The position numbers and the translations under genes are program-made. Shown here one piece after another: positions 8,267 through 21,670 of a stretch of 30,638 nucleotides of DNA. The notes under the pieces are model-generated. The model saw only the letters and a program-made list of their open reading frames with translations. It had not been told where the DNA came from and did not search any database. Each line of letters starts with the position of its first letter. Position 1 is the stretch's first letter. The DNA is from a virus: the IMG/VR virus record IMGVR_UViG_3300029955_000101, positions 1 to 30,638 of that record; one strand, 5' to 3'.

Positions 8267-10933
8267 CTATATCACGCTTGGGTTGAGACCAAACGATAGG
8301 GGAAATACGCCGTTGTTTCCGGCTAAGATCACGCCCAGATTGATTGAGAGCGATGGCCCGTTCATAATGATTTGTAAATTACTCACACCTACGAATCTAG
8401 GGTCAGCTTTTACAAGCTCGTTTATTGACCTAAAGATTTCCTGTATCTGGACTGTAGAATTTATAGTCCCAGGCTGAATACCAAGACCAAACTCAGGGTG
8501 AAGCAGGATAGATCCAGCAATACTGCCGAATTTGATCTTTAAAGCTTGAATTATGTTAGTCATTCCGTAGGCATAGCGGAAATCACCATAATTGTTCACG
8601 GCGATATCGCCGCTATCCGTCAATAATAGGTCAACCTTGCTCATGCCAGACAATGGGTCTGAGGAAGCAATTGCAGGAATTACAATGTTAGGCGAATCCG
8701 TCAAGTTGATATTGCTTGGAATGAAGATCTTTTGTTGGCTATTGACCGTTCCAGGCAAATAAGCCTGAATATAGGCCGAGTCAGCCGTCACAAAGTTCGA
8801 CAGGTTTGGCAGACCATCAAGCGTCAAAAGGAAGCTCGTAGTTGACAAAGTGTCAATCCCAAGGATCGTTCGTGGTGATGGAGTCTGAGTAGCGCTCATC
8901 AAAATGACAGTCTGTCCCAAGAACAAATTGGTGTTATTGCCGACGACGATATTGCGACCAGCAGCATTGGACAGCAACGGATATTGGAAACCGTTTTCGT
9001 CAATATAAGGGTCACGCAGGTTGTTTAGCGTTACAATTTCAATCCAGCGTTGAGGATCTTGCAAGTATCTAGAAGCGATACCTTCAATGGTCAAGCCAAA
9101 TGGAACCGGAGCAACGATCTTGCTATTTGGCACGTCAAACGTGATACCAGAAGAAGCCGCAAGGCCTGCAACATATTCCATGCTAGATAGGTTATTGCTG
9201 TCATTTACTTCAGTAGAAGCAGTCAGCAAATCGTATGCTTGCATGGTGTCGTAAAGAGCCTTGAGCAGGTCATAGTCGTCAAGCGTAATCGGCGCAATCT
9301 GCGTTACAGGAGGAGGCAAGTTGTAAACCTGACTCACGAAAGCATCGCCAATTCCGAAGTTATTCGAAAGCTGTAGGGCCAACTGTTGAATCGTAGCGCG
9401 ATACTGTTTTAGCTGATTCACGGTTGTAGCACGGGCAGAGTCAACTACGTCATCGACAACGGCTTGTTGAGCAACAGTCAAAGTCAAAGAATCAACGGGA
9501 ACTTGGTCTATGAGCAAGAAGTTTGATTCAGGACTAGTGAATACGTTCTGTGCAGGATCGGTCGATTGATACTGAGTAGCACCTACTCCGATCTGTCCGC
9601 TCGAAACCGCTTGAATGCTCAAGCCTTCAGTATTCTGACTACTAGCTTGCAATGCCTTGAAAGATAGAATAGTTTTAGGATCTGTGGCAGCATCGCCAGT
9701 CAACTGGTTAACGCTACGACCAGTCAATACAGATGCAATTCCGCTCTTATAATCGTTGATTACTTGAGACGGTAGATCGGCAGCGGTAATAGCTACACCA
9801 GCTAAGTCTTTGACAAACAATGCGGTCTGCCTAAGAGCATTGAGAGGAGCTTCCACGTCACTGCGTACCGCGCCAATCAAATTGATAGCAGCACTTGTAG
9901 CTTCGCGTGCAGCAAAGATAGTGTTCTGAATGCGTTGTAAGATTCCAGGAGTAAGAGGAGACACTCCAGATGGAACCGTAATGACTTTATTATTCAGGTC
10001 AATACGTCGCCAAGCTTTGAACTGGAGATTGAACATGATCTCCATAGCTTTCTGTTGGTTTTGTTGCCAAGTAAAAGATACGGGACTAACAACGAACGAT
10101 TGGTTTTGTTTTGGAATATCAAATACTAAACGCCATCCCACATTATTTGGATCTTTTTTAGCTTCAGCGTACTGCTCCAGGAATTGTTGGAGTTTCATAG
10201 CGCTGTAGTAGCCAGTGCTGATTAATCCGTTAGGAGTATTCTCAGGACGTGGAGTTACAGGTTTGTTAGCAGCGCTATTTCCCGTTGCAACGTTGATGAC
10301 ATTGGTAGCAGAAGCGGCCAGATTACTAAAGGCTTCCAGTGTTCCACCGAAAACGGATTGTAGAACTGTAGGATTAGTAGTGGGAGGGTTAGTAACGCTT
10401 TGTCTGTTGGACCACACGCCAAGAGATCCTTGGGCGTTAATCATTTTGAATTTTACGCCATTGTGTTCTTCGGTTACGCCGCGCAATGTGGCAATCGTGT
10501 TAATGGCAAATATATCTTGGATATTCAGCTGTTGAGGAGTAATTGGAAGCTCGAATATCCATTGTGCTCCATACGTGTTAAACTCAAGGCTAGAAGTATC
10601 CGTACCCTTTCTTACTGTGATTTGGGGAGGATTACTTCCGTTGACTATGGCATTATGAAAATTTACATCAATAACCAACAAACGATATGGGAATAGCTGA
10701 TCCCAACGTCTGCTGGCAATATCTATGGATGGGAAAAATACGCTTGGAGTAAAAGATACCACATTCTGCGGGTCGGATACCCATGGTAGACCCTCGTAGT
10801 ATGTGGGGCCACTATTTTGACTTTGAGCGATAACGGTAGCTAGATAGGAATTGGCGTTAGACTGAGGATTCGGCAAATCCTTGACTATCGTATCTGACGC
10901 TCCAAATTGGCTTGAAAAATCGCTCGTTGACAT
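8267..10933 (-). CDS. Baseplate protein with LysM-like and gp25-like domains (888 aa)
   Basis: The ATG start has a strong AGAGGAAA ribosome site. Residues 60-330 form a beta-rich part with ELPITPQQLNIQD and EEHNGVKFKMINAQG stretches, then a Trp-rich WRLVFDIP/AWRRIDL part, of a kind I associate with XkdP-like baseplate proteins. The middle (about 330-590) is helical. Residues about 604-680 look LysM-like: PFGLTIEGIASRYLQDP, then WIEIVTLNNLRDPY. Residues about 764-888 match the gp25/GpW_gp25 wedge family: DSGDIAVNNYGDFRYAYG, IIQALKIKFGS, HPEFGLGI. Gp25-like proteins are normally separate proteins of 100-150 residues, so this is a fusion. It sits directly upstream of the J-like gene, as gp25 does in P2-like and PBSX-like clusters. 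Role: baseplate wedge/sheath initiation joined to a hub-side LysM part. Domain calls are by eye. Confidence 0.75.
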   Translation of the reverse strand: MSTSDFSSQFGASDTIVKDLPNPQSNANSYLATVIAQSQNSGPTYYEGLPWVSDPQNVVSFTPSVFFPSIDIASRRWDQLFPYRLLVIDVNFHNAIVNGSNPPQITVRKGTDTSSLEFNTYGAQWIFELPITPQQLNIQDIFAINTIATLRGVTEEHNGVKFKMINAQGSLGVWSNRQSVTNPPTTNPTVLQSVFGGTLEAFSNLAASATNVINVATGNSAANKPVTPRPENTPNGLISTGYYSAMKLQQFLEQYAEAKKDPNNVGWRLVFDIPKQNQSFVVSPVSFTWQQNQQKAMEIMFNLQFKAWRRIDLNNKVITVPSGVSPLTPGILQRIQNTIFAAREATSAAINLIGAVRSDVEAPLNALRQTALFVKDLAGVAITAADLPSQVINDYKSGIASVLTGRSVNQLTGDAATDPKTILSFKALQASSQNTEGLSIQAVSSGQIGVGATQYQSTDPAQNVFTSPESNFLLIDQVPVDSLTLTVAQQAVVDDVVDSARATTVNQLKQYRATIQQLALQLSNNFGIGDAFVSQVYNLPPPVTQIAPITLDDYDLLKALYDTMQAYDLLTASTEVNDSNNLSSMEYVAGLAASSGITFDVPNSKIVAPVPFGLTIEGIASRYLQDPQRWIEIVTLNNLRDPYIDENGFQYPLLSNAAGRNIVVGNNTNLFLGQTVILMSATQTPSPRTILGIDTLSTTSFLLTLDGLPNLSNFVTADSAYIQAYLPGTVNSQQKIFIPSNINLTDSPNIVIPAIASSDPLSGMSKVDLLLTDSGDIAVNNYGDFRYAYGMTNIIQALKIKFGSIAGSILLHPEFGLGIQPGTINSTVQIQEIFRSINELVKADPRFVGVSNLQIIMNGPSLSINLGVILAGNNGVFPLSFGLNPSVI

Positions 10934-11001
10934 GTATTTCCTCTAATTATAAGATTGTGGGGTAGACCGCAACCCGCATAATGTGATATATATCATTTAA
11001 C
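10934..11001. promoter_or_regulatory. Divergent intergenic region with a 12-bp palindrome
   Basis: This 68-base gap separates the minus-strand 888-residue baseplate gene from the plus-strand metallopeptidase gene. For the minus strand, a TATAAT box (10946-10951) lies inside AATCTTATAAT, with no convincing -35. For the plus strand, CATAAT at 10977-10982 follows TTGTGG at 10955-10960 with a 16-base spacer, a weak sigma70 match. The perfect palindrome TGATATATATCA lies at 10984-10995, between that -10 and the ATG at 11002, where an operator could sit. No ribosome site is visible before 11002. Promoters here are possible, not shown. Confidence 0.35.
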
Positions 11002-11601
11002 ATGAATAAAATTCTTATCCCGATTTGCCTATTAGTTTGGTCATTTACGATCTACGGTTGTATGCGTAGTAGCCATAAAATCGAGCCTAGGCTTAAACCT
11101 CACTACGTTGGAATTGATCCTAGGGTTAAATCATTGATTAGAGAATACGTTAATCTTGCAAGGCAACACGGTATAAGATTTACTCGCCCTATAACGGTTG
11201 GATTCACGGATATAAATACGGGAATTGGAGATGGAAACAAAGTAATAGGAATTTGCTTTTATGGTAAAAATTTCAGAGAAATAGACATAGACAATCGTGC
11301 ATGGAATATGTATCCTGCTGATATTAAAGAGGAATTAGTTAGACACGAATTGACGCATTGCTTGTGTGGCAGAGGTCACGACTATGGAAATGGGGAACAA
11401 TATCCAAGCGTAGAGGTGGAAGAAATTATAGATTTGTTTCGTAAATGGCCATTTTACGTGCAAAGACCAGGCAGATATTCAGATGGTTGTCCGTTAAGCA
11501 TAATGTTCCCGTATGTGCTTTCCCAAAAATGTATACAATCTCACAGAAGGCAATACTACAAAGAGATGTTCAATAGGTGCAGCCCTGCTGTTGGCTCATG
11601 A
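11002..11601 (+). CDS. Putative lipoprotein zinc metallopeptidase
   Basis: The N-terminus is a lipoprotein-type signal: MNK, a hydrophobic stretch 4-19, and a lipobox-like IYGC with Cys20 (Tyr at -2 is unusual). The body carries HELTH (His115, Glu116, His119) and a further His126 in GRGHD, giving HExxH-6-H. This resembles the metzincin HExxHxxGxxH, with one extra residue. Met168 in SIMFP could be the Met-turn. In many small bacterial and phage putative metallopeptidases I recall the same order: HExxHC, GRxH, then S(I/L)M.P. Predicted location is anchored in a membrane after export. It is on the opposite strand to the tail genes and overlaps the GIY-YIG gene by ATGA. The substrate is unknown: peptidoglycan-linked protein, host surface protein or a superinfection factor. 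Fold confidence is moderate. Confidence 0.7.
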   Translation: MNKILIPICLLVWSFTIYGCMRSSHKIEPRLKPHYVGIDPRVKSLIREYVNLARQHGIRFTRPITVGFTDINTGIGDGNKVIGICFYGKNFREIDIDNRAWNMYPADIKEELVRHELTHCLCGRGHDYGNGEQYPSVEVEEIIDLFRKWPFYVQRPGRYSDGCPLSIMFPYVLSQKCIQSHRRQYYKEMFNRCSPAVGS

Positions 11602-12332
11602 ATAGTAATCTTGTCTGTATGAAAATAGACGGAGATACTATAGAAAAATATTCAAGTAAATTGCTAATATATAGAATTTACAATAATTTGGATGGTAAAA
11701 GCTACATAGGAAAATGCTCCAAGGGCTTAAGTAGGGTAGCAGGACATTTTATTGATTGGAAATACCCTAAAAAACAATACAGAGCAAAACTTCTATATAG
11801 AGCAATAAACAAGCACGGTCCAGAAAATTTTAGATGGGAAATTCTAGTAGAATGTACTTCTTTAGAAGAATTAGATAAAAAAGAGATAGAATTTATATCG
11901 ATGTTCCGCACTATCGATCCCGAATTCGGATACAACTTAACCGCTGGCGGAACAGGTGGAAATTCCTGGTCATGGTTGACCGATGAAGAAAAAGCGAAAG
12001 TTTCCAAGAAGATATCCGAGGGAAATAAGAAAAACTATCAAAATAATCCTGAGAGAAAATTAGAATCGGCAAATACTTTAAGGGCTACCAGGAAAGATCC
12101 CATAAAATCAGCAAAAAACAAAGCGGTATGTAGCGATAGATTAAAAAATCTAAATAAAAAAGATCCAAGATTTATGGGAGCTAGAAAATTAAAGGTAATG
12201 TGCCTGGAAAACGGGAAAGAATACGCGTCGTTAAAGGATGCTTCAGCCGATACTGGGATAGGGTACGGGACAATATCAACTGCCATAAAAAACAATAGAA
12301 AATGTAAGGGCCTAACTTTCAAGTTCGTTTAG
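11598..12332 (+). CDS. GIY-YIG homing endonuclease with NUMOD-type C-terminus
   Basis: I chose the ATG at 11598 because it makes an ATGA overlap with the metallopeptidase stop. An in-frame GTG lies 21 bases upstream and another ATG at 11619. The protein is 244 residues. GIY-YIG nuclease features: LIYRIYN (23-29) and SYIGKC (35-40), Arg45, His50, YRAINKHG (67-74), probable catalytic Glu96 in KKEIEFI, and GYNLTAGG (111-118). The lysine-rich linker is followed by a C-terminal NUMOD1/IENR1-like DNA-binding repeat (about 197-244: VMCLENGKEYASLKDA, GTISTAIKN, GLTFKF). It makes a DNA break or nick and promotes its own spread. The gene is clearly richer in A and T than the baseplate genes, as expected for a recent arrival. 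Its stop overlaps the opposing 441-residue gene by 3 bases. Confidence 0.88.
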   Translation: MNSNLVCMKIDGDTIEKYSSKLLIYRIYNNLDGKSYIGKCSKGLSRVAGHFIDWKYPKKQYRAKLLYRAINKHGPENFRWEILVECTSLEELDKKEIEFISMFRTIDPEFGYNLTAGGTGGNSWSWLTDEEKAKVSKKISEGNKKNYQNNPERKLESANTLRATRKDPIKSAKNKAVCSDRLKNLNKKDPRFMGARKLKVMCLENGKEYASLKDASADTGIGYGTISTAIKNNRKCKGLTFKFV

Positions 12333-13654
12333 CCTAGGTCTTTGTACAGTCTCACATTGCTAGCAATCGTATATTTGGCTGGAATCGAATCGTTGAGCGT
12401 TACAGCATTTCCTACTATGGTTTTGATTGCCATGGCAATTTCCACTTGATTATCCGCTGTAACATATACTGAATCCCCTGGACTTAAAAAGCTCACATCG
12501 ACCAAAGAAACGAAGGGTGTCCCGTTGGCATTCGCTGCGAACCCAGTAGTGGGAATGATCGTAAAATAAGTAGCCGCTGTAGATTTTATGTTTGCGATGA
12601 TGTTAGTCTGTGCAGAAGCGGCTGTTTTGAAACTAGAAAGAACAGTTAAAGATCCATTCAGGGCATTCAGCCTTAAAGCCAAAAACCCATATCGTCTGCC
12701 ATATAGTCCGCTACTCGAAGTGACGTTCCCGTTGGTCGTATCTTGAGCTATCGTGCCTAGCACAGCGTTTAGCTGAGCAGTACGAGTTGCTACGAAAGTG
12801 GCCCGTGCGGTCACAGCAGCGGTAAATGTAGCTAGATTTACAGAATATAATTGAGGATGCGGCGTAAGAGTTGCAGGATTTGTAGAATTGAACGCGGTTC
12901 CAGTCGTGCTTCCAGGCATTGGGGTAAACGCGGGCAATGCTTGAAAAGCAGCGATAGCAGGTAAGATAACATTGTTGATGTTGTTGAGCGCAGCGGCATT
13001 ATTTGCCGTATTAGTAGAATTAGAGTCAACGATCAAGCCAATGGCAGTGGCCTGAGCTTGCAATGCAGTCTTCCATGCTGCAACAGCCGCATTCAAGTTT
13101 GTGCTTAATGTCTGTAGAGCCGTAAACGTTACGATTGGATTGGAAAGTACGGTATCAGCTTTTTGTCCAGTCGTGTTCTGAATGTCAGTGTTTGCGGCCA
13201 GCGAGGTGAAGATGCCTTGGATAGTCGTGATGTTTGCGTCTTCATTGGAAGGATTGGTTCCATAGACCTGAACGTAGTTTTTACCAACCGCGAACGACAA
13301 AGCGAACGGGCTTAGGTATGGCCATACGTTATTGAGGGCTGAAAGACTAGGAACTACCTTCGTAGTATCATTTGGGAAGAAATCGTTTTGTAGTTTTTTG
13401 TTCGCAGCATCGACAATATCTTGTTCAGATATGGTAGTGCGCAGGTTGCCGTCTATGTTGTTGAATTCAGCCTGGTATTGGCCGATCAACGTGTTAGAGG
13501 GCAGGAACAGATTGTCATTTGCCGTATCAATAGCCTGAGCCTTTACTTGCTGCGCTGCAACGGCGGCTTGCGCGCTTTGGACGCCAGCGATAGTAGTCGG
13601 AGCAGTGACTTGATACAATGAGAATGAGATTCTGTCCGCTTGGGCAGTTGGCAT
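12329..13654 (-). CDS. Probable tail structural protein, function unknown (441 aa)
   Basis: Not recognised as a named family. It is rich in Ala, Thr, Asn, Gln and Ser, with no Cys and no membrane segment. Alanine-rich heptad-like helices occur at about 25-50, 185-245 and 285-310, between short beta stretches. The last 70 residues (SPGDSVYVTADN, then VGNAVTLNDSIPA) look like a small beta domain of the kind seen in phage fibre and baseplate parts. It lies between the small 104-residue gene and the LysM/gp25-like gene in the tail order, so a baseplate or tail-tip structural role is likely. It ends tail-to-tail with the plus-strand GIY-YIG gene with a 3-base overlap and no terminator. Confidence 0.6.
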   Translation of the reverse strand: MPTAQADRISFSLYQVTAPTTIAGVQSAQAAVAAQQVKAQAIDTANDNLFLPSNTLIGQYQAEFNNIDGNLRTTISEQDIVDAANKKLQNDFFPNDTTKVVPSLSALNNVWPYLSPFALSFAVGKNYVQVYGTNPSNEDANITTIQGIFTSLAANTDIQNTTGQKADTVLSNPIVTFTALQTLSTNLNAAVAAWKTALQAQATAIGLIVDSNSTNTANNAAALNNINNVILPAIAAFQALPAFTPMPGSTTGTAFNSTNPATLTPHPQLYSVNLATFTAAVTARATFVATRTAQLNAVLGTIAQDTTNGNVTSSSGLYGRRYGFLALRLNALNGSLTVLSSFKTAASAQTNIIANIKSTAATYFTIIPTTGFAANANGTPFVSLVDVSFLSPGDSVYVTADNQVEIAMAIKTIVGNAVTLNDSIPAKYTIASNVRLYKDLG

Positions 13655-17418: not shown

Positions 17419-19808
17419 TAGTTACCATGGCCCTTGCCAGAGCCAGCTTGAGATTGGTTCTCAGGAGCAGTAGAAGGATTCAAAACTGAATTGAAGTATG
17501 CGTTAGCACGTTTCTCGTTTGGAGTGCCCTGAGCAGATTCGACACCACGACGTAGAGCGGCATTGAACTGATTTACTGCCTCAACGGTAGGAACCAAAAT
17601 GTCATGAAACTGTCTGAAACTTTTCAAAACGTCCTGTTGGGAAGCAGCATCGGCTGAATTTTTCTCATCTTGTTGTCTTGGCATACCTGGGACGTTTAAG
17701 CTATCTTCGTATGCTTTCTGTTCGCTTTCGCTTCTTTGTTGCGGAACGCCATTGACGAATCCCATTGCGACAGATTTTGCCATTTGCGGCGACATACCAG
17801 GAGCAGCATTGGCTTGCAATGTGTTAATCCTATTATAGTCTGCGCGAGCACCCTCGTCAAGTTGACCGAGAGTGGCGTCATCAAGTTTGTCTATATTGTT
17901 TGCCTTCATGTAAGTTTGCAAACGTTTTCGTCTCTGATCTAGCTCTGGATCTCTAGATTGAGTATTGTCCTTAGCCTTATGTATACTTTGCAAGAATTCA
18001 TCTTCAGTTAATTCTGGATTCTTAGCTTTAGCTTGTGCATAAGCATCCTGAACCTTAGGATTTTCTAAGCTAAGATCAACGTCGTTAGTGCTCATCAAGG
18101 CGCTCATAGACTGAGGATCAATCCCTTTCAAGTTTTTATCTTGAAGGAAAGAACTAGCTTGCAATACGCCGTATGCGCCAGAAGTGGACGATGATCGTTG
18201 TTGATATTGGTCAAAAGCGTTTTTGGCACCTTCGAGACCCATCATAGTATTTGAGCCCATGAAACGACTGAACTGCGCGGCTTTGTCTGCTGCATCTTCT
18301 GGAGATGTAGAGCCAGAACGAGAAACGACTTCGGCAACAGTTTGCGTGAATTTGCGATTCTCTTCTGTCATGTCGGCAGCATTCAATCCTAAACGCATAC
18401 CTTCAGCTAAAATTTTGATTGTAGCCTGTTCAGACTCTTTCGCTCCACCAAGCTGACCGCTTAGTGTTCCCATTACTTGACCAGCATTGGTGAGATCATG
18501 GTCACGAGACATTTGATTACCGAATATTGCTGAATCTCTAGCTGCTCTGCTAGATCCACCAGCGCCAAGGATATCTTGGGACATGCCGGTCATTTGAGAA
18601 GAAGTGAAACCTTTGCCTGCTCCGCGAGCAAAGTATCCGCCTTGACCAGTCAAATCCTCATCGCTGAAACCAAGCGAACGCTGCGTTGCTAGATTTGCTT
18701 GGCCATTGTTAGCAAAGTAGTCAGCCGCCTGAGTCTTATACGGGTTAGCTTCTCGTTTTGATTGTTGAGTAGTCTGATAGTTCTGCGACCGTTCAGCCAT
18801 ATTAGACAACTGATACTTGTCTTGGAAATTCTGACCCGTCTGGCCAGGCAACATGCCAAGGTCTCTATTCCTAGTTCTTGAATTAAATACGTCGTGAAGG
18901 CCAGCAGCGCCTAGACGAATCATGCCAGGAAGAGTAAAAAGCTTGGAGCTATTCAATGCACCATGAACGCTCTGCGCTTCGTCTGTGGCCATCTGAACGT
19001 CTTGCGATTTCTTAGCTTCAGCCATCGCATCAGACTTTTCTTTCATGAAAGACATTTCGTATGATTGCTGTCCGCCAGTGGCAGCGCCTATCTCACGACC
19101 ATACGTATTGGAAATTGCGGACCCACGAGCCTGCGAAACTTCCATGGGAATTTTATTGTAGCCAACGTATGCGTTACCGGCCATGGTCATAGCCTTGCTG
19201 ACTGCGCCTAGAACCATAGCGCCTACGGCCATACCGCCGCCAAGCATCGCCATCGAACTGCCGCCTCCAGCCATTAGACCTTCAAGCCCACCTGATCGGC
19301 CAGAATTGAAATCTCCCATAGCTTTGCCAAACTTGGTTTGGTTCATCTTCTGACGAGCGTCCATGGCGTCATTGATGACTTTATCTCTAGCTGCGATTGC
19401 ATCATTTTGCTTTCTGATGTTTTCTTTGGCGGTCAAGATCTCTTGTGTAATTCGCAGTTCCTCTTTGGAACCTTTTACAACTTTCTCTTGACTCTTTAGA
19501 TGCTTTTCTAATTCTGCTGTTTTCTGTACGACCTGTTTCTGAGACTCAACGTTAGCCTTATGTTCAGATGCAATGCGTCTATCCAGGTCAATCTTGGACT
19601 GATTGGCTGAACGCTTATAAGCATCCTGAGCGGCCTTGGACTGAGGACTAGCAAGCCCCATGTTCTCGGCACGTTGTTGAGTATTTTGTAAAGATTGGGC
19701 ATTAGCGCCAGGACGGTAGGCGTCCGTGAGCTTCTTCTTGATCTTGTCGATTTGACCATCGACATCAGAAGTATCCAATTTTACCATGAAACTAATCGTT
19801 TTATTCAT
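17418..19808 (-). CDS. Tail tape measure protein
   Basis: 796 residues, directly upstream of the hub gene. It starts with a MVKLDTSDVDGQIDKIKKKL stretch typical of tape measure N-termini. Heptad-rich coiled coil spans about 60-155. A glycine-rich hydrophobic segment lies at 174-212 (AMLGGGMAVGAMVLGAV) and could be the membrane-active part. The rest is Gln/Ser/Asn-rich and helical, without a recognisable peptidase or lysozyme domain. With the usual rule of about 0.15 nm per residue, the tail would be about 120 nm long, ordinary for a myovirus. Start: ATG at 19808, fused by TAATG to the stop of the upstream HNH gene, with only a weak ribosome site. Confidence 0.85.
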   Translation of the reverse strand: MNKTISFMVKLDTSDVDGQIDKIKKKLTDAYRPGANAQSLQNTQQRAENMGLASPQSKAAQDAYKRSANQSKIDLDRRIASEHKANVESQKQVVQKTAELEKHLKSQEKVVKGSKEELRITQEILTAKENIRKQNDAIAARDKVINDAMDARQKMNQTKFGKAMGDFNSGRSGGLEGLMAGGGSSMAMLGGGMAVGAMVLGAVSKAMTMAGNAYVGYNKIPMEVSQARGSAISNTYGREIGAATGGQQSYEMSFMKEKSDAMAEAKKSQDVQMATDEAQSVHGALNSSKLFTLPGMIRLGAAGLHDVFNSRTRNRDLGMLPGQTGQNFQDKYQLSNMAERSQNYQTTQQSKREANPYKTQAADYFANNGQANLATQRSLGFSDEDLTGQGGYFARGAGKGFTSSQMTGMSQDILGAGGSSRAARDSAIFGNQMSRDHDLTNAGQVMGTLSGQLGGAKESEQATIKILAEGMRLGLNAADMTEENRKFTQTVAEVVSRSGSTSPEDAADKAAQFSRFMGSNTMMGLEGAKNAFDQYQQRSSSTSGAYGVLQASSFLQDKNLKGIDPQSMSALMSTNDVDLSLENPKVQDAYAQAKAKNPELTEDEFLQSIHKAKDNTQSRDPELDQRRKRLQTYMKANNIDKLDDATLGQLDEGARADYNRINTLQANAAPGMSPQMAKSVAMGFVNGVPQQRSESEQKAYEDSLNVPGMPRQQDEKNSADAASQQDVLKSFRQFHDILVPTVEAVNQFNAALRRGVESAQGTPNEKRANAYFNSVLNPSTAPENQSQAGSGKGHGN

Positions 19809-20386
19809 TATTGCTCAATCCTATTACCCTTTTTAAGATTATCCTGTGACCACATTGGGCGTAGATTACTATGGTGATTCAGTTTATATAGTTCTTTTTC
19901 TGATTTTGCCAATGAAAGAGGGTGGCGGTGATCGATATTCCACTTATTTCGTCCTGATCCATAGTTTTCCCAAGTCATTCCTGGTTGAAATAGAGATTCG
20001 AGATGTAGTTTAAACTCTACTAAAGAGCACCCCAACATGATCAAGGTACTAATGCTACGAGATTTTCCTTTAAGGGCACAATATATTCTTCCGCTCAAAT
20101 TTCCTCTTAGCTTAAACATAACATCGTTTTCTTTACGATTTTTAACCTGAGCATTTATCTTGCTTTTGTTTTTACTCTTCCATTCTCTATTTCTTGCTTT
20201 TTCCTCCTCGCATGAATCGGCATACCTAATAAGTCTTTTTTCACTATGGCAGGCGTTACACCAAGAACTAAAACCGTCCCTATTGGTCTTAGCCTTATAT
20301 GTGAAATCTAAGCCTAAAACTTTGTGCTTTCCACATCTTGCGCATTGTTTCATAGTATTAAGATTGTCGTATTCTGATTCTGCCAT
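19808..20386 (-). CDS. HNH endonuclease with zinc-ribbon N-terminus
   Basis: 192 residues. Cys15xxCys18 and Cys43xxCys46 make a zinc ribbon (QCARCGKHK, WCNACHSEK). The basic middle is followed by an HNH core: WNIDHRHPLSLA (149-160), then HHSNLRPMWSQDNLKKGNR (171-189), with His153 and the Asn residues as probable catalytic and metal positions. Phage HNH genes of this pattern are common free-standing homing endonucleases. The gene is the first of the tail transcription unit and its TAA overlaps the tape measure ATG, an unusually intimate position. It is richer in A and T than the tape measure gene. No ribosome site is clear at the ATG; M12 is a possible alternative start. An AATCTTA motif lies at 20359-20365. 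Confidence 0.8.
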   Translation of the reverse strand: MAESEYDNLNTMKQCARCGKHKVLGLDFTYKAKTNRDGFSSWCNACHSEKRLIRYADSCEEEKARNREWKSKNKSKINAQVKNRKENDVMFKLRGNLSGRIYCALKGKSRSISTLIMLGCSLVEFKLHLESLFQPGMTWENYGSGRNKWNIDHRHPLSLAKSEKELYKLNHHSNLRPMWSQDNLKKGNRIEQ

Positions 20387-20414
20387 ATATATCTACTTAT
20401 ATCAGGGGTTGCAC

Positions 20415-20443
20415 TTGACTTACCCAAAAAGATACGATATTAT
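20415..20443 (+). promoter_or_regulatory. Sigma70-type promoter for the small plus-strand unit
   Basis: TTGACT at 20415-20420, then a 17-base spacer, then TATTAT at 20438-20443. The -35 matches TTGACA in five of six positions and the -10 matches TATAAT in four of six. An AAAGGA ribosome site at 20453-20458 precedes the ATG at 20465. Spacing and order are right for host RNA polymerase. This unit runs against the surrounding minus-strand genes, which fits a separate promoter. Confidence 0.72.
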
Positions 20444-20464
20444 AAAATCTACAAAGGACACAAA

Positions 20465-20692
20465 ATGCGCAAAAAGACCAAGCAAATCAAGAAGAAAGGT
20501 CCTACTTTGATGGACCGATTGCCTGAGAACCAAGGCGAATGGCTGATGCTCGTTATAAAAAATACAAAGAAAGTGCTTGGTGGCCACTCAGAAGCTTCCT
20601 ACGATTTCTTGGAAGATCAGCTTGATCGTCTGGAAAAAGAACTAGAAGCTTTTAAAGCATCTAATCCCGATTTGAGACTGCGCGAACTGTAA
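20465..20692 (+). CDS. Small basic/coiled-coil protein, unknown
   Basis: 75 residues with a good AAAGGA ribosome site and a promoter upstream. The N-terminus is lysine-rich (RKKTKQIKKKG). A short helical segment follows (GEWLMLVIKNTKKVL), then an acidic amphipathic helix (DFLEDQLDRLEKELEAFK) likely to form a coiled coil. There is no known motif. The stop TAA is immediately followed by the ATG of the next gene, so the pair is co-translated. The position, on the strand opposite its neighbours with its own promoter, suggests independent, possibly early expression. Function unknown. Confidence 0.65.
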   Translation: MRKKTKQIKKKGPTLMDRLPENQGEWLMLVIKNTKKVLGGHSEASYDFLEDQLDRLEKELEAFKASNPDLRLREL

Positions 20693-20929
20693 ATGACTGA
20701 AATCGTTACCATATCCGTATTTTTGACTTTAGCTATGTTGTGGGCTATACTGCCAGAACTGCGGTGGGTAAGAAGAATAATCCATTGTAAATTTGACAAA
20801 CACTTTTTTATCAATAAAAGATGTGTTTACTGCAAAGAGAAAAAACGTCGCCTCCTTGATTTCTTTTCTGCCTTCCTGACGCTCTTTGGCCTTGGCCTTC
20901 TTGGTAGACTTGTGTGGAGGAATATCTAG
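20693..20929 (+). CDS. Small two-span membrane protein with a CxxC motif, unknown
   Basis: 78 residues. There are hydrophobic segments at about 5-22 and 57-74, a basic cytoplasmic-like loop between them, and His32-Cys33 plus CVYC (45-48), which could bind a metal. Start ATG sits directly after the previous gene's TAA with no ribosome site of its own, so coupling is likely. The opposite strand over the same bases is also open (a lysine-rich frame from an ATG at 20989), so the reading is not certain. I prefer this strand because it continues the promoter-led unit and has a coherent membrane topology. Possible roles include a membrane effector or holin-like protein; neither can be shown. Confidence 0.55.
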   Translation: MTEIVTISVFLTLAMLWAILPELRWVRRIIHCKFDKHFFINKRCVYCKEKKRRLLDFFSAFLTLFGLGLLGRLVWRNI

Positions 20930-20981
20930 TGACTGCTCCTGAATTTTCAGAGAGTAGTGCGATGTTCTTTTGGTGTCTCGC

Positions 20982-21407
20982 TTAGCCATATTTTTCTTGC
21001 TTGAGGATATCAAGAGCGCGTTCTGCGTCTTTATCGGTCAGACCAATTAGAGAGTTGGTCAACACGTATTTGTGTAAGAAGTCCGGCATTTCTGCCATGT
21101 CATCTAGGATTACGAAATTTTCTGCTGGATGGTCACGAAGCCATTTCTTGATGTGATGGTCGCGGGTCTTTAGCGCGTGCTCTGGCTGGCCAGGAGTAAC
21201 GTCTATCACTTTGATAGGATCAATTCCATGTGCTGATAGAATCACTCTGCATTCTTGCAAGCCCTTGGCTCTCCAAGAGCTAGATATGACAATGCGAAGA
21301 TGGGGCTCTTTTATGAGCAGTTCGTGTACGCGATTGCAAGCTTCTTTCGAGAAGTCTTGATGGAGCGGCTTGATTACGCCGTCGAAATCTAGGAATAAAA
21401 TTTTCAT
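20982..21407 (-). CDS. HAD-fold hydrolase of the phage RNA-repair type
   Basis: 141 residues. HAD motif 1 is FLDFDGV (5-11, catalytic Asp7 and Asp9). Motif 2 is ISSSW (41-45). The distal acidic pair is ILDDM (Asp102, Asp103). The very short cap-less form with DFDGV, SSSWR, LDD and a VLTN...GLT end corresponds to the HAD family known from Swiss Army Knife RNA-repair proteins. Probable activity: phosphatase on a nucleic acid end or nucleotide. The gene begins three bases after its upstream neighbour ends. A 20-codon remnant of a close paralogue lies at 29859-29921. The RNA-repair role is inferred from family and from the kinase/ligase genes nearby. Confidence 0.78.
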   Translation of the reverse strand: MKILFLDFDGVIKPLHQDFSKEACNRVHELLIKEPHLRIVISSSWRAKGLQECRVILSAHGIDPIKVIDVTPGQPEHALKTRDHHIKKWLRDHPAENFVILDDMAEMPDFLHKYVLTNSLIGLTDKDAERALDILKQEKYG

Positions 21408-21409
21408 CT

Positions 21410-21670
21410 TTACTCAATCGGCGGAGAGCCTTCTGGTCTGTTCAGAAGCGTCGTATAGCCGTAAAAATCTTTAAGTCGTTTAATAGCTCGTGTGGTGTCT
21501 GGGTGCCAATTAGTCTCTACGCCAAGCCAGTGAGCGATCACTATGCAGGGTACGTGCGCTGCCTGGGCCATCATCGAGATAGTCTTTTGGATATCGCGTC
21601 CACCTTTTCCGTGGAAGTAATTCAAGACCGTCTGTTTGCTGGCGTCGTATCCGCCTATATCTATTGTCAC
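21410..21670 (-). CDS. Small unknown protein (GTG start)
   Basis: 86 residues from a GTG at 21670, with a GAGGA ribosome site 5 bases before it. The composition is ordinary, with a predicted helical middle (ASKQTVLNYFHGKGGRD, QKTISMMAQAAHVPCIVIAHWLG) and a basic TTRAIKRLKDFYG helix. The helices could make a small DNA-binding fold, but no family is recognised. Upstream (21671-21720) a TTTACA box and TAGTAT are separated by 19 bases, a weak promoter candidate, and the AATCTTA word lies at 21692-21698. The stop TAA lies two bases from the HAD start. Confidence 0.6.
   Translation of the reverse strand: MTIDIGGYDASKQTVLNYFHGKGGRDIQKTISMMAQAAHVPCIVIAHWLGVETNWHPDTTRAIKRLKDFYGYTTLLNRPEGSPPIE

Follow-up and report, generated by a model that had tools for sequence, protein, structure and literature searches.

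We describe a metalloprotease-like gene, oriented against the tail genes of an uncultivated phage, that sequence comparison identifies as a long-standing resident of the baseplate locus, inherited together with the neighboring baseplate gene. What was inserted at this locus is, on the same evidence, the GIY-YIG homing endonuclease gene behind it and not the protease gene. Both genes lie in a virus record of 30,638 bases that was analyzed over its whole length (hereafter, the window). The explanation that we favor, and hold to be rather probable as a whole, is a resident protease directed at the host envelope, combined with an endonuclease that homes on genes of this protease family.

The first gene (MP; 11002..11601, plus strand) encodes a predicted exported, metzincin-like metalloprotease of 199 aa, assigned from its open reading frame, an alignment of 41 members and an AF2 model. 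Through an ATGA at 11598-11601 it overlaps the second gene (11598..12332, plus strand), which encodes a putative free-standing homing endonuclease of 244 aa. This protein matches the homing endonuclease family PHROG 314 (E 6e-34) and scores 19.1 bits against Pfam GIY-YIG, under the cut-off of 22.6 that its relative on the L081 contig exceeds. Both reading frames run opposite to the two flanking minus-strand genes: bp888 (8267..10933), which is divergent to MP and matches the baseplate protein family PHROG 975 (E 5e-18), and g441 (12329..13654), a convergent tail-region neighbor that is also present in part of the relatives and has no family match below E 0.1 in Pfam and PHROG searches. GC content is 38.7% in MP and 34.9% in the endonuclease gene, against 44.7% and 46.4% in the flanking genes. 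The initial annotation, made from the letters of this stretch, had recognized the orientation, the AT-richness, the overlap and the homing endonuclease, all of which hold; it had read the pair as an inserted cassette in which MP hitches as cargo with a mobile endonuclease. Searches of the open-licence PMC literature listed no report of such an arrangement of protease and endonuclease genes.

We collected a first set of loci anchored on bp888, not on MP. It comprised 24 viral loci, two of which (L020 and L022) stop short of the interval beside bp888. An MP homolog on the opposite strand was present in 17 of the 22 loci covering the interval, counting a truncated copy in L012, and was absent from five; once near-copies were collapsed, MP was found in 12 of 16 lineages. 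Scanning with the MP alignment gave another set of 50 loci (46 viral and four from genome contigs), which contains MP by construction and has some contigs in common with the first. The order of bp888 on the minus strand followed by MP on the plus strand recurred in 42 of these 50 loci, and tblastn at E 1e-3 on the DNA covered around each detected a relative of the window's GIY-YIG protein in none of the 42. The remaining eight comprise seven loci without bp888 in the DNA covered and a false match, L085 (genome_contigs), which was dropped as an MP relative, its similarity being confined to the surroundings of the HExxH motif.

The family is divergent, and an alignment-based scan was needed to reach it. 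A single-sequence scan with the window MP found no relatives, and a nucleotide search of phage records gave no match. Against named phages, tblastn returned 24%-identity matches alone for the window MP (E 0.8-0.9) and no match for the MPs of L076, L108 and L081; a viral scan with the L108 MP returned its own contig as the sole match. The longest records of the phage group with MP measure 151-177 kb. Second, more distant MP-family matches occur elsewhere in records G002, G009, G016 and G020. Four of the 16 lineages and Myxococcus phage Mx1 lack MP, which is thus not essential; searches of the longer MP-less records G004, G007 and G008, which are possibly fragments, and of Mx1 gave no MP-family match.

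Where it is present, MP follows the history of its neighbor. Pairwise distances of the MP and bp888 proteins were correlated across 35 loci, window included (Pearson r 0.72, with 0 of 2000 permutations as high), and L002 is the window's nearest relative for both proteins. The nearest relative was identical for the two proteins in 20 of the 35 rows and different in 15, so that some exchange of MP is possible. A bp888 tree with 40 rows requires three changes to account for the five rows without MP, against a mean of 4.8 after shuffling. The dN/dS of MP ranged from 0.10 to 0.31 in the five computable pairs of seven (the other two were saturated and gave no ratio, and dS exceeded 2 in two of the five), which argues for purifying selection. 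The low GC content, which might be taken as a mark of recent import, was rejected as such: in all 34 relatives compared, MP is poorer in GC than the flanking sequence, so AT-richness is a usual property of this gene and no sign of a recent arrival.

The ends of MP and g441 in the window locate the insertion. MP proteins end in RC-x-PY-stop in L049, L056 and L084 and in RC-x-PW-stop in L039 and L045; the window MP ends in RCSP-AVGS-stop. Likewise, g441 has T or S before its stop codon in eight of nine relatives checked, I in L060, and G in the window (KDLG-stop). The stops of MP and g441 overlap in L049, L056 and L084, and in the window the GIY-YIG gene lies between them. From the altered ends of both genes, the edges of the insertion fall near 11587 and 12334, and the inserted segment would thus span approximately 11587..12334 and comprise the endonuclease gene alone. 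Insertion, as proposed by the initial annotation, therefore stands for the endonuclease; for MP it is not supported, as most relatives carry MP at this place without a relative of this endonuclease. In this gene-order comparison, the greedy ORF set did not include two MP loci (L043 and L044) and contained no next minus-strand gene for L069.

Several other elements occupy the gaps around MP. A small gene of ~115-140 aa on the same strand often lies 3' of MP (L037, L039, L040, L050-L055, L058, L060, L063 and L082), and two members that were scanned had no Pfam match. We saw no sign that the endonuclease displaced the small gene B that many relatives have behind MP, the nearest relative (L002/L036) being without gene B. 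In L040 and L045, a different gene, marked by the motif DC-x-(V/I)VAAYNA, is found 3' of MP. A perfect inverted repeat, spotted by eye at 5517-5552 of L036 between the convergent MP and g441 stops, is possibly a two-way terminator, at the position held by the endonuclease in the window. Elsewhere in the window, an HNH-like endonuclease, identified by eye and without a Pfam match, is encoded at 19808-20386 (minus strand); its relatives sit in different tail-region gaps, at L038 4381-4929 (directly 5' of MP), L022 1212-1838 and L094 6618-7127.

We further investigated where relatives of the window's GIY-YIG endonuclease are located. Scans with the protein and its alignments gave 24 distinct loci, which include two full-length relatives at 44% identity, in L108 and L109 (the contig of L081). 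In both, the endonuclease gene overlaps an MP-family gene at its stop codon (profile E 1e-15 and 2e-32), in contexts that differ from that of the window. An MP-family gene was found beside none of the other 22 loci in the flanks covered, some of which are short; their GIY-YIG proteins are partial or at most 41% identical to that of the window, except in L086 (45% over 74 residues). In a GIY-YIG tree that kept one copy of identical rows, omitted L110 and L120 because of their short extracted ORFs and has several long branches, the window, L108 and L109 fall on one side of a branch with a moderate support of 89/93. L115, L116 and L119 form a separate group, behind visibly similar upstream genes of their own. 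The probability that both MP-adjacent loci are by chance the two closest relatives is 1 in 276, or 1 in 190 without near-copies. Among phage records, the window endonuclease is 27-31% identical to the best 25 of 143 matched, and tblastn of the L108 endonuclease against named phages at E 1e-15 gave no match.

From these three genes, window included, we infer that the cleavage site of this endonuclease clade lies in MP genes, which is probably why its members also follow MP-family genes in other phages. That the association is due to chance, or that the target lies in another neighboring gene, seems rather unlikely to us given the contrast between two of two close loci and none of 22 others with an MP-family neighbor and the odds just given, even though the clade has just three members, one of which is the starting point, its support is moderate, and the three MPs are so distant that their sequences do not establish a common stretch of cleavage-site DNA. 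An endonuclease clade targeting MP genes would also explain the cassette-like look of the locus without joint movement. Joint travel of MP and the GIY-YIG gene, with MP as cargo, would fit the ATGA overlap and the presence of an MP-family gene before the window endonuclease and both full-length relatives in differing contexts. We nevertheless consider it highly improbable: MP stands at the same place without a relative of this endonuclease in most loci of the MP scan, belongs to most of the baseplate-anchored loci, follows the baseplate protein in its distances and has a conserved promoter-like element of its own, and the L081 MP is just 27% identical to that of the window.

The favored arrangement, an endonuclease homing on the gene that it adjoins, has counterparts in phage T4, where several free-standing GIY-YIG genes are neighbors of their target genes and are expressed from promoters lying upstream, the cut being hundreds or thousands of bases off (PMC2988022). 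The window endonuclease resembles T4 SegF and SegG in its GIY-YIG domain and its intergenic insertion beside a conserved gene (PMC2988022), and it would similarly borrow an upstream promoter, being expressed from the MP transcript. It differs from the T4 Seg-type genes in adjoining a protease gene. Most T4 GIY-YIG genes are oriented like the genes around them, segD being an exception (PMC2988022).

The MP protein carries the putative zinc motif HELTHCLCGRGH (HExxH, six residues and a third His; residues 115-126; 11344..11379, plus strand) and a Met-turn candidate, CPLSIMFP, picked out by column conservation (residues 163-170; 11488..11511, plus strand), both of which the initial annotation had proposed. 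Across the 41 distinct members of the alignment (the window and 40 others), the columns of H115, E116, H119 and H126 are invariant, so the motif is not a chance occurrence. The spacing from HExxH to the third His is six in 40 of 41 members, L039 having His at five and seven. C163, P170 and C177 are likewise invariant in all 41, and M168 of the Met-turn is kept in 39 (Leu in L044 and L050). Even the more distant MP of L108 retains HEILHCALFIEH and an LMYP turn, with a weak Pfam matrixin match (E 0.0096).

Motif and predicted fold together suggest that MP is metzincin-like. With metzincins and matrixins (PF00413, MMP catalytic domains; snapalysin) it has in common HExxH with a third His and an S-I-M-x-P Met-turn. 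The metzincin consensus is HExxHxxGxxH/D, whereas the window MP reads HExxHxxCxxxH, with six residues before the third His instead of five and a Cys at the position of the consensus Gly; strict membership fails on this one additional residue. The same consensus is given for Mtz of Listeria monocytogenes (PMC8235301). Unlike matrixins, MP has covarying cysteine pairs. The AF2 model, built from the 41 sequences, reached a pLDDT of 89.4, and after re-ranking, MMPs or snapalysin made up 49 of 50 among the PDB matches listed. The best was MMP-11 (Z 8.5, rmsd 3.3, 114 aligned; a Z near 8 is modest), and the fold match to matrixins spans residues 36-195. Foldseek alone, run on an earlier model, ranked a DNA-protein-crosslink repair protease first in the PDB (E 0.011), with nothing below E 0.001. 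Against viral models, three uncharacterized phage proteins passed E 0.001, and several weaker structural matches carry the name SprT-like. SprT is cytosolic, unlike MP with its predicted N-terminal export signal.

Profile searches placed MP outside established families. The window MP had no match to Pfam M10, scored 16.6 bits against PF18894 (PhageMetallopep), under the gathering threshold of 23.7, and 12.5 bits against the SprT-like PF10263, under that of 25.6. PF18894 is the commonest Pfam neighbor, matched at E <= 0.01 by 31 of 41 MPs, mostly around the zinc motif, and its gathering threshold was passed by four of ten relatives scanned. None of the 41 members matched NCBIfam, and a PDB sequence search with MP gave no convincing match.

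Several features suggest that MP is exported. A rule-based scan predicted an N-terminal export signal with a lipobox-like TIYG-C20 (11002..11061, plus strand), C20 fitting the rule applied, which is PS00013-like. The strict form of this rule is satisfied by 17 of 41 MPs, window included, and by three of 190 background ORFs in the genome of the nearest relative, one of which is its own MP; a strongly hydrophobic N-terminus is present in 41 of 41 MPs against 17 of 190 background ORFs. The putative lipoprotein of the initial annotation is thus probably lipid-anchored. Cysteines covary in pairs: C122 and C193 occur together in 34 MPs, are both missing from seven and are mixed in none; C85 and C120 occur together in 34, are both missing from six and are mixed in one (L081); and C163 and C177 are found in all 41. 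This covariation suggests three disulfides and hence export. A role of MP in virion processing was set aside, as the cysteine pairs would imply an oxidizing compartment.

MP may also be transcribed independently. Upstream of it lies the extended -10-like element TGATATATA (10984..10992, plus strand), whose TGATATA is found within the last 60 nt 5' of MP in 28 of 35 loci, whereas 300 rounds of first-order Markov sequences had it in 1.7 on average and in no more than 5. Its end lies a median of 8.5 nt from the MP ATG (range 7-30; 11 nt in the window), and TGATATA is found upstream of bp888 in none of the five MP-less loci. We read it as a candidate extended -10 promoter (TGnTATA) of MP's own, which would make the message nearly leaderless. 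A distinct element, CAATCTTAT (10949..10957, minus strand), lies upstream of bp888; of the 35 loci with MP, 32 have its complement AAGATT(G/A) within 150 nt, and CAATCTT upstream of bp888 is kept in five of five MP-less loci. The rest of the window shows no enrichment of CAATCTTAT. Three observations speak against the promoter reading of TGATATA. In a simple sigma-70 scan, 10700-12700 had fewer sites than its shuffles did; TGATATAWM occurs three times in the window against 0.9 expected, two of the occurrences being on MP's palindromic site; and in the relative G001, TGATATATCA is present at two other sites, one 5' of a same-strand structural gene. The structural region of G001 has a counter-strand island (L088 116-1659, G001 20116-21659) encoding an SLT transglycosylase and an exonuclease, and the divergent promoter region of this island also has TGATATATCA and CAATCTTAT.

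The simplest reading of a protein that appears exported, disulfide-bonded, conserved, accessory and independently transcribed is a protease directed at the envelope. MP would have a sigma70-like extended -10 promoter of its own, from which it is transcribed in the direction opposite to the tail genes; the protein would be exported, often lipid-anchored and disulfide-bonded, and would cleave host envelope proteins in the manner of a metzincin-like zinc protease. It would most likely alter or weaken the envelope during infection, either helping lysis or excluding later phages, possibilities that the initial annotation had also raised. In the window's lineage, the GIY-YIG gene was inserted between the convergent MP and g441 stop codons. 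A precedent for a phage-associated metzincin-like protease is Mtz, a phage-derived secreted metzincin that sensitizes Listeria cells to phage lysis; Mtz is exported, as is predicted for MP (PMC8235301). Mtz has an AIMLD Met-turn and a Sec/SPI signal, where MP bears a lipobox-like signal, and it sits in a cI-cro-like locus with a TIMP-like lipoprotein partner (PMC8235301).

Two more specific roles can be weighed on these data. MP could be dedicated to lysis, breaking proteins that belong to the outer membrane or are linked to the wall, and replacing a spanin or acting beside it. The rule-based export and lipid-anchor signals, the Mtz precedent (PMC8235301) and the SLT transglycosylase in another counter-strand island of the nearest relative speak for such a role, but the absence of MP from 4 of 16 lineages and a separate small-membrane-gene cluster in G001, one member of which weakly matches an Rz-like spanin (E 0.019), speak against it, leaving it plausible but short of probable. 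Alternatively, MP could shave receptors off the infected cell and so block superinfection. The accessory distribution of MP would suit this role, as would a promoter-like element that is of host type, belongs to MP itself and differs from the bp888-oriented one; we find the role doubtful, since it presupposes early expression and a receptor that MP would cleave.

Under the broader reading of an envelope-directed protease, MP may have company. A subtilisin-like protein (Pfam S8, E 1e-21), with a lipobox in G001 (L089 4731-5549), is represented in 14 of the 16 genomes or records searched, the two without a relative being the MP-less G007 and Mx1. The same phage group thus probably has a second exported protease. 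More tentatively, the endonuclease clade may be specialized on the exported MP family and translationally coupled to its stop codons, in a group that deploys two exported proteases, MP and the subtilisin-like lipoprotein, to remodel the envelope.

Altogether, these results describe a conserved protease-like gene, with a predicted exported product, that large uncultivated phages carry on the counter strand and whose zinc motif exceeds the metzincin consensus by one residue. They also provide an example, open to testing, of a homing endonuclease associated with a single gene family. If MP does attack the envelope, a protease would be added to the known ways in which phages alter the bacterial surface.
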